The notes under the pieces: model-generated
Databases searched by the model: none
What the model was told of the DNA's origin: nothing
The model's input: only the letters and a program-made list of their open reading frames with translations
NCBI RefSeq assembly: GCF_000419605.1
Contig: NZ_ATTI01000001.1
Span: 1,708,501-1,772,500 of the forward strand
Direction of reading: 5' to 3'
Length of the DNA stretch: 64,000 nt
Origin: Sphingomonas phyllosphaerae 5.2
GTDB lineage: Bacteria; Pseudomonadota; Alphaproteobacteria; Sphingomonadales; Sphingomonadaceae
In this document: positions 13,403-17,924 of the stretch, piece by piece
Numbering within the stretch: the stretch's first letter is position 1
Layout: every line of letters starts with the position of its first letter
Translations under genes and position numbers: made by a program

Positions 13403-14806
13403 TTACCCCAGCGCCGCATGCGCGAGCCGCAAGTCCTCCACGAACCGCCCGAACTCCGCTTCGCGCGCGCTTTCATCCGGCAATCGCAACAGATGGCTTG
13501 GATGCACCGTGATCCAGGCCGCGCCGCCGTCGGGCAGCCGCTGCTCGCGCCCGCGTTCGCGCCCGATCGTCATGACCTTGCCGAACAGACTGCGCGCCGC
13601 TGTCGCGCCCAGCGCGACCGTCACTTTCGGCTGCAACAGCATCTGCTCCTGCTCGATCCACCACCGGCACGCTTCGATCTCGCCGGCATCGGGCTTGGCA
13701 TGAATGCGACGCTTGCCGCGCGGTTCGAATTTGAAGTGCTTCACCGCGTTCGTGACGTAAGTCTCCGCGCGCGTGATCCCCGCCGCGGCCAGTGCGCGAT
13801 CGAACATCTGCCCCGCCGGTCCGACGAACGGATGCCCCGCCAGATCCTCCTGGTCCCCGGGCTGCTCGCCGACGAACATCATCGGCGCCGACACCGGACC
13901 CTCGCCGAACACCGTCTGCGTCGCGTGCTTGTGCAGGTGGCAGCGCGTGCATGCGAGCGCCTCCTCGCGCAGCGCCTCCCACGCACCCTGCACGTTACTG
14001 CCGATCTCGGTGCGGTCGCGCGCGCGTTCGATCATCCCACTCTCCCGTGCCTGCGCGCTGGCGAGCAACTGCGGCACCAGCGCCGTCTCCGGCATGTTCT
14101 TCCAATACTTTCGCGGCATCTCTTTCAGCATCGCCTTAACCTTGACGCGTGCCGGGTTGAAAATGCTCGAATAGTAGGTCTTCCACACCTCTTCGATCGG
14201 GTCGCCTCCCGGCGCATCGCCGCGCGCTGCGCCCGGCCCCTCGTGCAGCGCCGCTCCATCCCAATGCACCGACACCTCCGGGGTCAGGATCGACCAGCGC
14301 ATGCTCGCGAAGCGGTTGACGAAGAATGCAGCATTGGCGCGCACGATATGATGTTCGGGCTCGAACCACGCGACGTAGCGCTCGCCCGCGCCCACTCCAT
14401 CGGCAACGCTGCGAAAGCGCAGGAACGCGCGCATCTTGTGGATGTCGCGACGTACCGCCTTCGCCAACCCCTCCAGCCGCCGGACGAGGGGATCGGCATG
14501 ATCTTCGACCAGCCGCGGTGTTTCTCGCAGTCGCCACAGCAACGCGTAGAGCAAGGCAAAGCGCTCCGGATCCTGATGCAGCACCGCATCACCGGCAAGC
14601 GCGATGAACCCGCGCGAGACCCGCAGCGGCGAGGCGGCAGCCGGCGGGGCCGACACCGCCTCCGCCGTCGCCGCGAACAGATCCGACGCCGCCGCGCCGA
14701 CTTGCCACACGACGCGGTCGGGCGGCACGTCATCGGCGATCAGCGCTCGCGCCGCCTCACGCCACGCATCCATGTCGTCGGGGGCGGGAAGGGTGACGGC
14801 GCGCAT
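13403..14806 (-). CDS. DUF4130 - UdgX fusion, putative uracil-DNA glycosylase that crosslinks to DNA
   Basis: A 467-residue two-part protein. The N-terminal half (about 1-245) resembles the DUF4130 'probable DNA metabolism' domain, with HKMRAFLRFR and WSILTPEVSVHWDG. The C-terminal half is UdgX-type family 4-like uracil-DNA glycosylase: Cys ligands in ALACTRCHLHK for a 4Fe-4S cluster, motif GEQPGDQEDL, the diagnostic loop KRRIHAKP with His369, and HPSHLLRL. In mycobacterial UdgX the equivalent His forms a covalent bond to the abasic site left after uracil removal. It is the last gene of a reverse-strand cassette, nine bases after a hemerythrin gene and downstream of a radical SAM gene. Confidence 0.9.
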   Translation of the reverse strand: MRAVTLPAPDDMDAWREAARALIADDVPPDRVVWQVGAAASDLFAATAEAVSAPPAAASPLRVSRGFIALAGDAVLHQDPERFALLYALLWRLRETPRLVEDHADPLVRRLEGLAKAVRRDIHKMRAFLRFRSVADGVGAGERYVAWFEPEHHIVRANAAFFVNRFASMRWSILTPEVSVHWDGAALHEGPGAARGDAPGGDPIEEVWKTYYSSIFNPARVKVKAMLKEMPRKYWKNMPETALVPQLLASAQARESGMIERARDRTEIGSNVQGAWEALREEALACTRCHLHKHATQTVFGEGPVSAPMMFVGEQPGDQEDLAGHPFVGPAGQMFDRALAAAGITRAETYVTNAVKHFKFEPRGKRRIHAKPDAGEIEACRWWIEQEQMLLQPKVTVALGATAARSLFGKVMTIGRERGREQRLPDGGAAWITVHPSHLLRLPDESAREAEFGRFVEDLRLAHAALG

Positions 14807-14815
14807 CTGGACGGG

Positions 14816-15301
14816 TTACTCGCGCTCGTCGCCACCCGGCGGATTGTCGCGCGCCAGCTCCAGCTCGGCGGGCTTGCGCTCTTCATAGGTCGCGGCAAGC
14901 CGCTCCTCGGTCGCGTCGTCGAGCTTCTCCTCGGCGGCAGGGAACATCTCTTCCTCCTCCTCGTCGATGTGGTGCTCGTAGCGATGGCGCATGTGCTGGA
15001 ACTTCGCCTCCCACGCGTCCGTCCCGAACTCCATGTCGAGCAGTTCGCCGAGCAGGTCGTCGACTTCCTTGTGCTCCGCTACCGAATGCCGCGCCTCGTC
15101 ACGCAGGTCGGGCTTGCCGAGCATGGTGGCGTAGAGCGACTCTTCCTCGGCCGCGGCGTGGCTCTGCACCTCCAGCCGGAACGCGTCGAACAGCTCGCGG
15201 CGTGCGTCGACGGCACCGTCCAGCTCACCCAGCTGCTTGAGCATCCCGCGCTGCTTGTCGTGATCGCGCTTCAGATCGGCGTAGATGTCCGCATGTGCCA
15301 T
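14816..15301 (-). CDS. Hemerythrin-like HHE domain protein
   Basis: A 161-residue helical protein with the full set of apparent di-iron ligands: His in KRDHDKQRG, His and Glu in VQSHAAAEEES, His in EARHSVAEHKE and HHIDEEEEEMFP. Hemerythrin-like proteins bind O2, NO or act in iron or oxidative-stress responses. ATG 15301 has a strong AAGGAGA site. The C-terminal 25 residues are polar and probably disordered. It sits between the radical SAM gene (62 bases upstream) and UdgX (nine bases downstream) on the same strand, suggesting a role in the same DNA-repair pathway, perhaps oxygen or iron protection of the Fe-S partners; that role is inference. Confidence 0.88.
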   Translation of the reverse strand: MAHADIYADLKRDHDKQRGMLKQLGELDGAVDARRELFDAFRLEVQSHAAAEEESLYATMLGKPDLRDEARHSVAEHKEVDDLLGELLDMEFGTDAWEAKFQHMRHRYEHHIDEEEEEMFPAAEEKLDDATEERLAATYEERKPAELELARDNPPGGDERE

Positions 15302-15363
15302 GATCGTCTCCTTCGTGGCGCCAGCGCACGAAGCGGTCCGCTCGTTTCACCCGCGATTCATTC

Positions 15364-16626
15364 TCACGCGCCGAACAATTCCAGCTGCTGGCGCGCAGGC
15401 CGCGGCGCGACCAGCGGTTTCAGCTCGGCCTGGTCTGCCAGTACCACCGGTCGCCAGTCCTCCGCGATGATGAACGGCCGGATGCGCGCGATCGACACCG
15501 TCAACCGCGCGACATCGTCGAGCCGCAACCGCCGCCAGCGCCGCGCCGCTAGGATGCTCTTGACCGCCTTGGTGCCCAGTCCCGGCACACGCCACAGCAT
15601 CTCTCGCGACGCCCGGTTTACGTCGACCGGGAAGTGCTCACGAAACTTCAACGCCCACGCCAGCTTGGGATCGATATCCAGCGGCAGCATTCCCGTTGCC
15701 GTATCGGTCGCCGCCACCACTTCGCCTGGTTGAAAGCCGTAGAAACGCATCAGCCAGTCCGACTGATACAGTCGATGCTCGCGCATCAACGGCGGACGTT
15801 GCAGCGGCAGGACGCTCGATGCATCGGGGATCGGGCTGAACGCCGAGTAATAGACGCGCCGCAAACCGAAGCGATCGTAGAGCGTCGACGCCTTGGTCAC
15901 GATGTCGCCGTCGGTCGCGGCATCCGCGCCGACGATCATCTGCGTCGATTGCTCCGCGGGTGCGAAGCGTGGCGCGGACTTGTAGCGGGTGCGTGCATCG
16001 GCCGTATCGTCGATAGCAGTGCGCATCTCGCCCATCGCGCCCTCGATCCGCGCTTCGCTCTTCTCGGGCGCCAGCCGCTTCAACCCGCCGACCGTCGGCA
16101 GCTCGACGTTGATCGAGACGCGGTCGGCATAAAGCCCGGCCTGGTGCACCAGCTCCGGATCGGCATCGGGAATGGTCTTGAGATGGATATAGCCACGGAA
16201 GTTGTGATCCTCGCGCAACGATCGCGCGACCTCGACCAGCTGCTCCATCGTGTAATTGGAGGATTTGATGATCCCCGACGACAGGAACAGCCCCTCGATA
16301 TAATTGCGCCGATAGAAAGCGATCGTGAGGTTTACGACCTCCTGTGCCGTGAAGCGCGCGCGCCGCACGTTCGAGCTCTTGCGGTTGATGCAATAATGGC
16401 AGTCGAAGATGCAGCTGTTCGTCAACAGGATCTTCAACAACGAAATGCAGCGGCCATCGGGCGCATAGGCGTGGCAAATGCCCATCCCTTCCGTCGATCC
16501 CAGCCCCTTGCCGTCCGCCGAGTTACGCTTCGTGGTGCCCGACGACGCGCAGGACGCATCGTATTTCGCGGCGTCGGCGAGGATCTCCAGCTTCTGTTGT
16601 ACATCGAGCTGGGCCATCTGTTCCAT
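15364..16626 (-). CDS. Putative DNA modification/repair radical SAM protein
   Basis: A 420-residue radical SAM enzyme with the cluster motif CxxxCxxC at Cys72, Cys76 and Cys79 (NSCIFDCHYCINRKSS). Three further Cys precede it (residues 26, 51 and 60). Near the C-terminus, PVDVNRASREMLWRVPGLG followed by KAVKSIL is a helix-hairpin-helix DNA-binding motif. This matches the family described as a putative DNA modification/repair radical SAM protein found beside UdgX/DUF4130. It heads the reverse cassette radical SAM - hemerythrin - UdgX. Its ATG lies only two bases from the first ATG of the opposite-strand gene. Its reaction is not established. Confidence 0.9.
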   Translation of the reverse strand: MEQMAQLDVQQKLEILADAAKYDASCASSGTTKRNSADGKGLGSTEGMGICHAYAPDGRCISLLKILLTNSCIFDCHYCINRKSSNVRRARFTAQEVVNLTIAFYRRNYIEGLFLSSGIIKSSNYTMEQLVEVARSLREDHNFRGYIHLKTIPDADPELVHQAGLYADRVSINVELPTVGGLKRLAPEKSEARIEGAMGEMRTAIDDTADARTRYKSAPRFAPAEQSTQMIVGADAATDGDIVTKASTLYDRFGLRRVYYSAFSPIPDASSVLPLQRPPLMREHRLYQSDWLMRFYGFQPGEVVAATDTATGMLPLDIDPKLAWALKFREHFPVDVNRASREMLWRVPGLGTKAVKSILAARRWRRLRLDDVARLTVSIARIRPFIIAEDWRPVVLADQAELKPLVAPRPARQQLELFGA

Positions 16627-16628
16627 CT

Positions 16629-17924
16629 ATGTTCGAACTGGCGGCTTGTCGAGAGCGTATCGCTTTGCCAAAGATCAACACCGTGCAAAGGACCATCGAT
16701 CGGCTTGGCCCCAGCGGCCCGTATCTCGCGCTTGCACTAACGTGCCTGATCGGCTGGGGGTTCAAGGCGCATTGCGGTGCGGGCTGGACGGGCGCCGAAC
16801 AATATACCACGGGCTGCTACAGCGACGCCGTGCCGTTCTGGGGATTGCGTGGGCTGGCGGCAGGGCAGGTGCCGTACTTCCAGGCGCGGATGGAATATCC
16901 GGTGCTGACCGGCGCGCTGATCTGGTTCGAGGCGCTGGTCGCACGCGTGATCGGTGGGCGCGGCGCGGATGCCGCGGACTTCCTGAACGCCGTGACGCTG
17001 GGCAACGCAATCCTCGCCTTCGTCGTGCTGGAGTTTTTTCGCAACGCCGGTATCGGCCTGCGTCGTCAATATGGCTGGGCACTCGCGCCGCCTCTGGTGC
17101 TGTATCTCGGGCACAATTGGGATCTGCTGGCGGTGACGTTCGCGATTGCCGCGCTGCTCGCGGCGTGGCGCGCAGAGTCGGTAAAGGCGACTGGGCTGGC
17201 GGCGCTCGGCGGCGCGGCGAAGCTGTTCCCGATACTGATGCTTCCGCTGCTCGGGCTCGGTGCGTTAACGCACGCGGGGCGCTCGTGGCCGAAACGCATC
17301 GCCGGCGCGGCGCTGCTGGTTGCAGTCGCGGTCGGAGCGTGGGGCGCGGTGAACCTGCCGGTCGCCGCGCTCGCCTTCGAGAACTGGCGCGAGTTCTACG
17401 CCTTCTCCGGCGAGCGCGCCGGCACCGCCGCCAGCATCTGGGAATTGCTGGCGCAGTTCGGCTGGTGGGCGACCGATATACCGACCCGCAACTTCTGGTC
17501 GTTCGTGCTCTTCGCGGGCGGCGCGGCGACGATCGTCGCGGTCGGCTGGCGGCGGCACGGTGCGCGGCCGTGGTTGCTGTTCATGCCGGTGCTCGCGTGG
17601 TTCCTGCTGACGAACAAGGTGTATTCTCCGCAGTTCGATCTGTGGCTGTGGCCGATGATCGTGCTGACGGGCACGCGCGTGCGTGCGATGGCGCTGTTCC
17701 TGCTCGGTGACATCGCCGCCTATTTCGCCGAATTCTGGATGTTCGCCGGAATGGAGAATGCATGGCCCTCTGCGACGCAGCCCGACATCCTTGCCGCTGC
17801 GATCGTGCGCGGTGCCGCGATGCTGTGGCTGATCCACGGCGCGGTGCGCGATCCAGCCCCGGCGTGGGTCACTCGGCCGCGAGCAGCTCCGCAGCCTGAA
17901 GATCGACCGATACCAGACGGCTGA
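16629..17924 (+). CDS. Multi-spanning membrane protein, probable GT87-like glycosyltransferase
   Basis: A protein of up to 431 residues with about ten hydrophobic segments, resembling the GT-C superfamily DUF2029/GT87 mannosyltransferase-like group: an early acidic loop (GCYSDAVPFWGLRGLAAG, VPYFQARMEYP), and the later motif NKVYSPQFDLWLWPM. The true start may lie downstream of ATG 16629 (for example GTG 16683), since that ATG is almost abutting the divergent radical SAM start. The 3' end overlaps the 3' end of smc by 56 bases on opposite strands. Function is inferred only from the membrane-glycosyltransferase look. Confidence 0.7.
   Translation: MFELAACRERIALPKINTVQRTIDRLGPSGPYLALALTCLIGWGFKAHCGAGWTGAEQYTTGCYSDAVPFWGLRGLAAGQVPYFQARMEYPVLTGALIWFEALVARVIGGRGADAADFLNAVTLGNAILAFVVLEFFRNAGIGLRRQYGWALAPPLVLYLGHNWDLLAVTFAIAALLAAWRAESVKATGLAALGGAAKLFPILMLPLLGLGALTHAGRSWPKRIAGAALLVAVAVGAWGAVNLPVAALAFENWREFYAFSGERAGTAASIWELLAQFGWWATDIPTRNFWSFVLFAGGAATIVAVGWRRHGARPWLLFMPVLAWFLLTNKVYSPQFDLWLWPMIVLTGTRVRAMALFLLGDIAAYFAEFWMFAGMENAWPSATQPDILAAAIVRGAAMLWLIHGAVRDPAPAWVTRPRAAPQPEDRPIPDG

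Follow-up and report, generated by a model that had tools for sequence, protein, structure and literature searches.

A hemerythrin-like gene in a predicted LexA-controlled radical SAM and DUF4130-UdgX operon of Sphingomonadaceae

Genes of the operon and its predicted LexA-controlled promoter

A stretch of 64,000 nucleotides from Sphingomonas phyllosphaerae 5.2 (contig NZ_ATTI01000001.1; the whole stretch is called the window) carries three closely packed genes on the reverse strand, which code for a radical SAM protein, a hemerythrin-like protein and a fusion of DUF4130 with the uracil-DNA glycosylase (UDG) UdgX. The source genome is 3.9 Mb, and the named records nearest by the hemerythrin-like protein are Sphingomonas. 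The first gene (15364..16626) encodes a radical SAM protein of the rSAM_link_UDG family (TIGR03916, 569.9 bits against a family cut-off of 343.5) with a C-terminal helix-hairpin-helix (HhH). It possesses the cluster motif CX3CX2C at Cys72, Cys76 and Cys79, and its matches to PF04055 (28.3 against the Pfam cut-off of 29.5) and to HHH_3 at residues 333-362 (22.3 against 27) fall slightly below the cut-offs. The second gene (14816..15301) encodes a protein of 161 amino acids with an HHE domain (PF01814) and five predicted helices, referred to as HHE in the following. The third gene (13403..14806) encodes DUF4130 at residues 9-241 (TIGR03915, 218.8 against a cut-off of 112.25) fused to UdgX at residues 243-461 (TIGR03914). 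All UdgX motifs are present, namely GEQPGD at 313, the KRRIH loop at 365-369 with His369, and HPSHLLR at 435, and the UdgX half shows about 51% identity to Mycobacterium smegmatis UdgX structures. The 50 Foldseek matches listed for the fusion protein were uracil/thymine-DNA glycosylases and one phage polymerase, all best ascribed to the UdgX half and none to the DUF4130 fold. The gap between the radical SAM and HHE genes is 62 nt (15302..15363) and contains no terminator-like site, while HHE is separated from DUF4130-UdgX by 9 nt (14807..14815). A first-pass annotation had described three reverse-strand open reading frames with these coordinates and gaps, which were found to be correct. The identities it had given to the proteins are borne out by TIGR03916, PF01814, and TIGR03915 with TIGR03914, and the KRRIH loop with His369 is situated as it had proposed.

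A LexA box, GAAC-ATAGATG-GAAC on the reverse strand (GTTC-N7-GTTC on the forward strand), is situated at 16620..16634, where it overlaps the first ATG of the radical SAM gene and the likely -10 element. It is the single exact match to the pattern in the window on scanning of both strands. GTTC-N7-GTTC is the LexA consensus given for Caulobacter in the available part of PMC12700426. Upstream regions of radical SAM homologues were compared after identical ones had been removed, and the 137 distinct upstreams were split at 78% identity. The box was found within -60 to +25 in 77 of the 77 distinct upstreams of homologues with at least 78% identity, against 0.3% of shuffled sequences, and in 32 of the 60 from less similar homologues. 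The 28 upstreams with no box in this interval represent non-Alphaproteobacteria loci and a few alphaproteobacterial ones. At the alphaproteobacterial loci L161, L163, L164, L167 and L168 the box lies farther upstream of radical SAM, and none was found at L158. The bare pattern is not specific in the genome, since it occurs at 102 sites against 35 for a reversed control pattern. In a survey of 16 genome regions, chosen mostly for AT-rich spacers, boxes precede genes reading as lexA, uvrA, imuA, radA and rmuC (named by reading translations rather than by family search), and several other boxes have no clear gene.

The majority consensus of the 77 distinct upstreams points to a sigma-70-type promoter on the reverse strand (16625..16653), composed of CTCGAC (16648-16653), a 17-nt spacer and ATAGAT (16625-16630), the latter inside the LexA box. 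The radical SAM protein probably starts at Met4 (16617) and not at the first ATG, since the latter is itself part of the LexA box and many relatives have ATC in its place. In the aligned consensus the ATG of Met4 follows about seven bases behind the box and -10 element, and the start at 16617 may be leaderless. The putative promoter carries the motif that defines the alphaproteobacterial LexA regulon, and LexA would be expected to bind there. The first-pass annotation had read the genes as one unit. This is supported by their common direction and by the predicted damage-response promoter, whose LexA box it had missed.

Distribution of HHE and partnerships within the operon

The neighbourhood of HHE was analyzed in 201 Sphingomonas genomes. 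Neighbour counts are based on the best 150 listed rows each for radical SAM and UdgX, and hence are undercounts. Radical SAM was found in 177 of the 201 genomes and UdgX-type proteins in 190, while HHE matches at E 0.001 were present in 151. Among these, 110 close orthologues in 109 genomes were distinguished, below which the scores in the listed rows drop from 167.4 to 42.7 bits. By the listed rows, 71 of the 110 orthologues are flanked within 6 kb and on their own strand by radical SAM on the 5' side and UdgX on the 3' side, and both neighbours lie within 400 bases for 59. Of the others, 12 have just radical SAM close by, 12 just UdgX, and 15 neither of the two. Reading of the DNA revealed full cassettes in G039 and G185 of the UdgX-only group (G152 and G026 were outside this reading). 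The group with neither neighbour comprised full cassettes in G015, G056 and G144, HHE-UdgX pairs without DUF4130 in G043, G091 and G154, and nine stand-alone HHE genes, read for about 4 kb on each side; one of these, L134 (G075, matched by coordinates), ends at a contig end. In total, at least 76 of the 110 orthologues are in full cassettes and 101 are near radical SAM or UdgX. With both neighbours within 400 bases for 59 of the 110, the three-gene arrangement goes far beyond what chance would give. An HHE orthologue is present in 105 of the 177 genomes with radical SAM against 4 of the 24 without (Fisher p 1.1e-4, uncorrected for relatedness and incomplete genomes). The first-pass annotation had regarded the hemerythrin between the other two genes as the unusual part; this position recurs in related genomes, so that within Sphingomonadaceae the idea withstands one of the refuting conditions which that annotation had set.

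Outside Sphingomonas, 59 DUF4130 loci were analyzed. Sixteen came from a class sample (of 18 rows, the other two being Sphingomonas) and 43 from a wider search, of whose 75 rows 25 were not made into loci from it, two of these genomes being already covered by the class sample. The LexA box was present in 15 of the 16 class-sample loci. Radical SAM adjoins DUF4130 in 57 of the 59 loci. The two exceptions are L176, where the contig of about 1.2 kb before DUF4130 holds the box and no radical SAM, and L204, a weak second copy in a genome which has a pair as well. At L176 (1002-1221) the GTTC-N7-GTTC box stands directly before the DUF4130-UdgX gene with no radical SAM gene between. UdgX was undetected in 23 of the 59 loci, one of which (L179) is cut by a contig end. 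Conversely, nine Sphingomonas genomes (G004, G012, G041, G043, G085, G088, G091, G154 and G155) have a UdgX without the full DUF4130 part, that of G012 keeping a remnant of the DUF4130 end. Radical SAM was found in none of these nine, of which G012 and G088 are less than 90% complete. From the adjacency in 57 of 59 loci and the joint absence in the nine genomes, radical SAM is seen to go with DUF4130. The suggestion of the first-pass annotation that radical SAM might act on the UdgX-DNA adduct, to resolve or modify it, finds no support in this distribution and was rejected, as radical SAM tracks DUF4130 rather than UdgX.

Three of these genomes (G043, G091 and G154), all without radical SAM, have HHE directly 5' of the DUF4130-less UdgX, and in one of the three (locus L207) the HHE stop overlaps the UdgX start. 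One clade of seven rows in the HHE tree has HHE and UdgX together with no radical SAM in the stretch examined; its two members in the genus sample (G001 and G021) have radical SAM elsewhere in the genome. Where HHE is near only one partner, it appears to be mostly UdgX. In G158 (L278, 3-2004) a divergent UdgX paralogue, found in 4 of the 201 genomes at E 1e-60, adjoins another, different HHE protein on the 3' side of the latter. The loop of the paralogue is KRRLH, it carries GEQPGN, and the part read lacks cysteine; the neighbouring HHE protein possesses a long D/R/G-rich tail. Two of the other three paralogue loci were read and have no adjoining HHE, and the G158 case was not used as evidence for an independent HHE-UdgX pairing.

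These partnerships also bear on the idea that HHE serves the iron-sulphur (Fe-S) clusters of radical SAM and UdgX as a protector or an iron supplier, storing or donating the metal. Both proteins belong to Fe-S families, the candidate ligands of HHE are invariant, and Fe-S centre repair by some hemerythrin-like proteins (HLPs) is mentioned in the available part of PMC8913304. The link of HHE outlives radical SAM but holds to UdgX, and relatives manage without HHE, which makes this role quite unlikely in our estimate.

Ligands and fold of the hemerythrin-like protein

The HHE domain was identified at residues 6-123 (PF01814, 66.3 bits against a gathering cut-off of 25.3). The candidate ligands H14, H48, E52, H72, E76, H77, H110, H111, E114 and E115 are invariant in the orthologues aligned. 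The protein may be loaded with a diiron centre. An AlphaFold model of HHE built from 70 orthologues (pLDDT 93.8) shows helices at 6-26, 31-61, 67-89, 95-126 and 129-152, forming a bundle with a fifth helix as in mycobacterial HLP. The best fold match of the model was Mycobacterium kansasii HLP (6q09; E 1.4e-4, TM 0.75), the sole match under E 0.001, and the His and Glu positions of the two proteins align. Tyr57, invariant in the HHE rows aligned, aligns with one of two adjacent Tyr residues in 6q09 and is a possible counterpart of the mycobacterial Tyr ligand. M. kansasii HLP is reported in PMC8913304 to have nitric oxide (NO) peroxidase and weak catalase activity and to bind its iron through four His, two Glu and one Tyr.

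The first-pass annotation had called this a complete hemerythrin-like protein, which holds for the HHE domain and fails for the O2-carrier signature. The latter is printed as H-HxxxE-HxxxH-HxxxxD in a review (PMC9388753, available in part), whereas HHE has HxxxEH as its third motif and Glu as its final acid. O2 carriage was rejected on this ground, and the same departure from the canonical ligands weakens the case for O2 carriage or sensing by hemerythrin, which was part of the idea of the first-pass annotation. An O2 carrier, or an O2 sensor gating the pathway, would have the hemerythrin fold and HHE domain in its favour; no signalling domain is attached to HHE, and such a role is highly improbable.

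The sole NCBIfam match of HHE was the PA2171 family (NF053874), at 60.5 bits. Pseudomonas aeruginosa PA2171 is reported to bind the ribosome and FtsZ (PMC13041383, from the text available in part), and by analogy HHE could be a brake on growth in the SOS response, slowing translation or division during repair. The score of 60.5 is far below the cut-off of 190, and the match is unspecific because NF053874 also picks up another, different HHE protein, at 64.5. A PA2171-like brake was rejected on this basis, and a braking role is improbable.

Possible role of HHE and comparison with known systems

We tentatively favour, at a little under even chances, the reading that the locus is a LexA-controlled lesion-processing operon with an auxiliary diiron protein, which would consume peroxide or NO, most likely for the benefit of the Fe-S repair enzymes and UdgX above all. 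This reading builds on the genes, the LexA box, the recurrent position of hemerythrin and the persistence of HHE with UdgX without the rest, all as read from sequence. LexA would repress an operon for the processing of damaged DNA, with LexA binding and co-transcription presumed. Radical SAM and DUF4130, the conserved pair, would probably act together on a base lesion in a single radical reaction. UdgX, judging from its motifs and fold, would excise uracil and capture the abasic site through His369. In Sphingomonadaceae an HHE gene, stand-alone in some relatives, may have come to lie in the operon, and HHE would be made together with UdgX upon LexA cleavage. NO chemistry deaminates cytosine and attacks Fe-S clusters. 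HHE might consume the peroxide or NO that would destroy Fe-S clusters and deaminate cytosine. Its position next to UdgX suggests joint working of the two proteins, and HHE may be in physical contact with its operon partners. UdgX has been proposed to protect abasic sites under C-to-U conditions, in the available part of PMC10359453.

Several observations weigh against the protective role of HHE. At the protein level, HHE shares just 28% identity with 6q09. The Tyr ligand of mycobacterial HLPs is described as absent from HLPs of other origin (PMC8913304, available in part), and an M. smegmatis HLP, a different protein, left the E. coli mutation rate unchanged when over-expressed as a control in a QnrB paper (PMC6617969, likewise in part). 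A strict consensus promoter scan gave no match at the radical SAM upstream. In loci that lack radical SAM, the 300 bases ahead of HHE held no exact LexA box apart from one at -90 in L135; this single case was read as chance, and a LexA box of its own for HHE was rejected. HHE was found in none of the 59 DUF4130 loci outside Sphingomonas, with about 1.5 to 4 kb examined on each side, and six of the nine genomes whose UdgX lacks full DUF4130 have weak matches only and no HHE orthologue. Among the 121 radical SAM-UdgX pairs listed, HHE lies nearby in 71, and the other 50 come from genomes without a close HHE orthologue. Because HHE is missing from these 50 pairs and from all 59 loci outside the genus, the operon evidently works without it, and hemerythrin appears to be a recurrent, dispensable addition in Sphingomonadaceae.

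Two comparisons with relatives weigh the same way. The 15 genomes of the Novosphingobium group all have a single HHE copy (E 1e-20), which is stand-alone in 11 and in the cassette in 4; radical SAM is present in 11 of the 15. In all seven genomes of the group with both stand-alone HHE and radical SAM, UdgX comes immediately after radical SAM and the locus carries a LexA box. Six close relatives (L008-L013) hold a GC-rich palindromic repeat of about 100-150 bases in the HHE slot between radical SAM and UdgX, with about 25 bases in common between the radical SAM stop and the repeat; this may represent secondary loss of HHE. No convincing HHE remnants were found among eight HHE-less gaps examined.

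The 50 pairs without HHE, the many stand-alone genes and the repeat also speak for HHE as a general-stress gene settled in a convenient inducible operon, its product having no special tie to UdgX or radical SAM. The word GGAAC-N15-18-CGTT, which presumably resembles the EcfG general-stress promoter consensus, occurs in 4 of 26 upstreams of HHE genes that have neither radical SAM nor a full-length DUF4130-UdgX next to them, a group including a few HHE-UdgX loci (chance about 0.001 per upstream). It was found in none of the 65 upstreams where HHE follows radical SAM and none of the 13 where HHE precedes just UdgX, and an EcfG-type promoter for cassette HHE was rejected. On the other side, 101 of the 110 orthologues are near radical SAM or UdgX, and three genomes that lack radical SAM still keep HHE paired with UdgX. 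In the HHE tree, built from 101 loci and reduced to 90 rows by removing identical HHE sequences, the full-cassette label changes 14 times, of which at least 10 changes are forced by well-supported (starred) branches, against 29.5 in shuffles; yet the test does not reject one common origin for the four Novosphingobium-group cassettes (p 0.156), and repeated entry into the operon within that group is not claimed. A mere passenger gene is doubtful, and retains an appreciable probability.

The promoter-like words of the stand-alone Novosphingobium HHE genes lie at -53 to -91 (L113, L119, L120 and L127). The neighbourhoods of stand-alone HHE contain topoisomerase IB-like, beta-helix-like and SMC genes, named by reading. 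A beta-helix-like gene, apparently with a cytochrome-like partner and likewise named by reading, was repeatedly inserted beside HHE or UdgX (L104, L123, L126, L140, L141, L272, L274 and L275). Two records titled Arthrobacter and Actinobacteria (L105 and L118) carry sphingomonad-type cassettes, fall inside Sphingomonadaceae on the HHE tree and are probably misnamed or mixed assemblies.

A stronger form of the favoured reading takes HHE as a hemerythrin-like diiron enzyme dedicated to DNA repair, LexA-induced with UdgX and destroying NO and peroxide at the repair site, with HHE-UdgX as a functional unit of its own, separable from radical SAM-DUF4130. In this full form it is rather unlikely. If true, a single operon would remove both the agent which deaminates cytosine and attacks Fe-S clusters and the resulting uracil in DNA. 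The split of the set into radical SAM with DUF4130 and hemerythrin with UdgX guides which proteins to purify together. The placing of the operon under a LexA box, and peroxide or NO as a testable substrate class for hemerythrin, add to the value of the locus.

COG4277 is taken by us to be the HhH/radical SAM family of this operon. A literature search, with subscription journals mostly outside its coverage, gave no text pairing 'UdgX' with 'radical SAM' and, judged mostly by titles and abstract openings, no description of a hemerythrin link to uracil-DNA glycosylase or the SOS response. Two candidates for an SOS link were rejected: in the available text of a V. cholerae hemerythrin paper the SOS response occurs only in a reference, and in that of the QnrB paper the hemerythrin-like protein is a neutral control.

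At the protein level, M. smegmatis UdgX (6ajp, 6ajo and others) has the same KRRIH loop, GEQPG and HPS motifs and fold, whereas UdgX here is fused to DUF4130 in an operon with radical SAM and HHE. M. kansasii HLP (6q09) has the four-helix bundle and fifth helix in common with HHE and differs in genomic setting. The PA2171 persister protein, from the partial text available, is hemerythrin-like, of similar length and with five helices, as is HHE. At the operon level, DUF4130, a SplB-like radical SAM protein and UDG are named together in PMC3765255, where DUF4130 is called a predicted mutagenesis-related enzyme; the word 'hemerythrin' is absent from its available text. SOS control of a UDG operon (COG1573-COG4277) has already been reported in Alphaproteobacteria, along with Verrucomicrobia and Bacteroidetes, in the part of PMC8565304 available, where LexA likewise controls UDG together with another repair gene. 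COG1533, the SplB radical SAM protein, is given there separately from COG4277, and 'hemerythrin' is again absent from that text. The operon is of a known SOS repair kind, and the lineage-specific hemerythrin is its new part.

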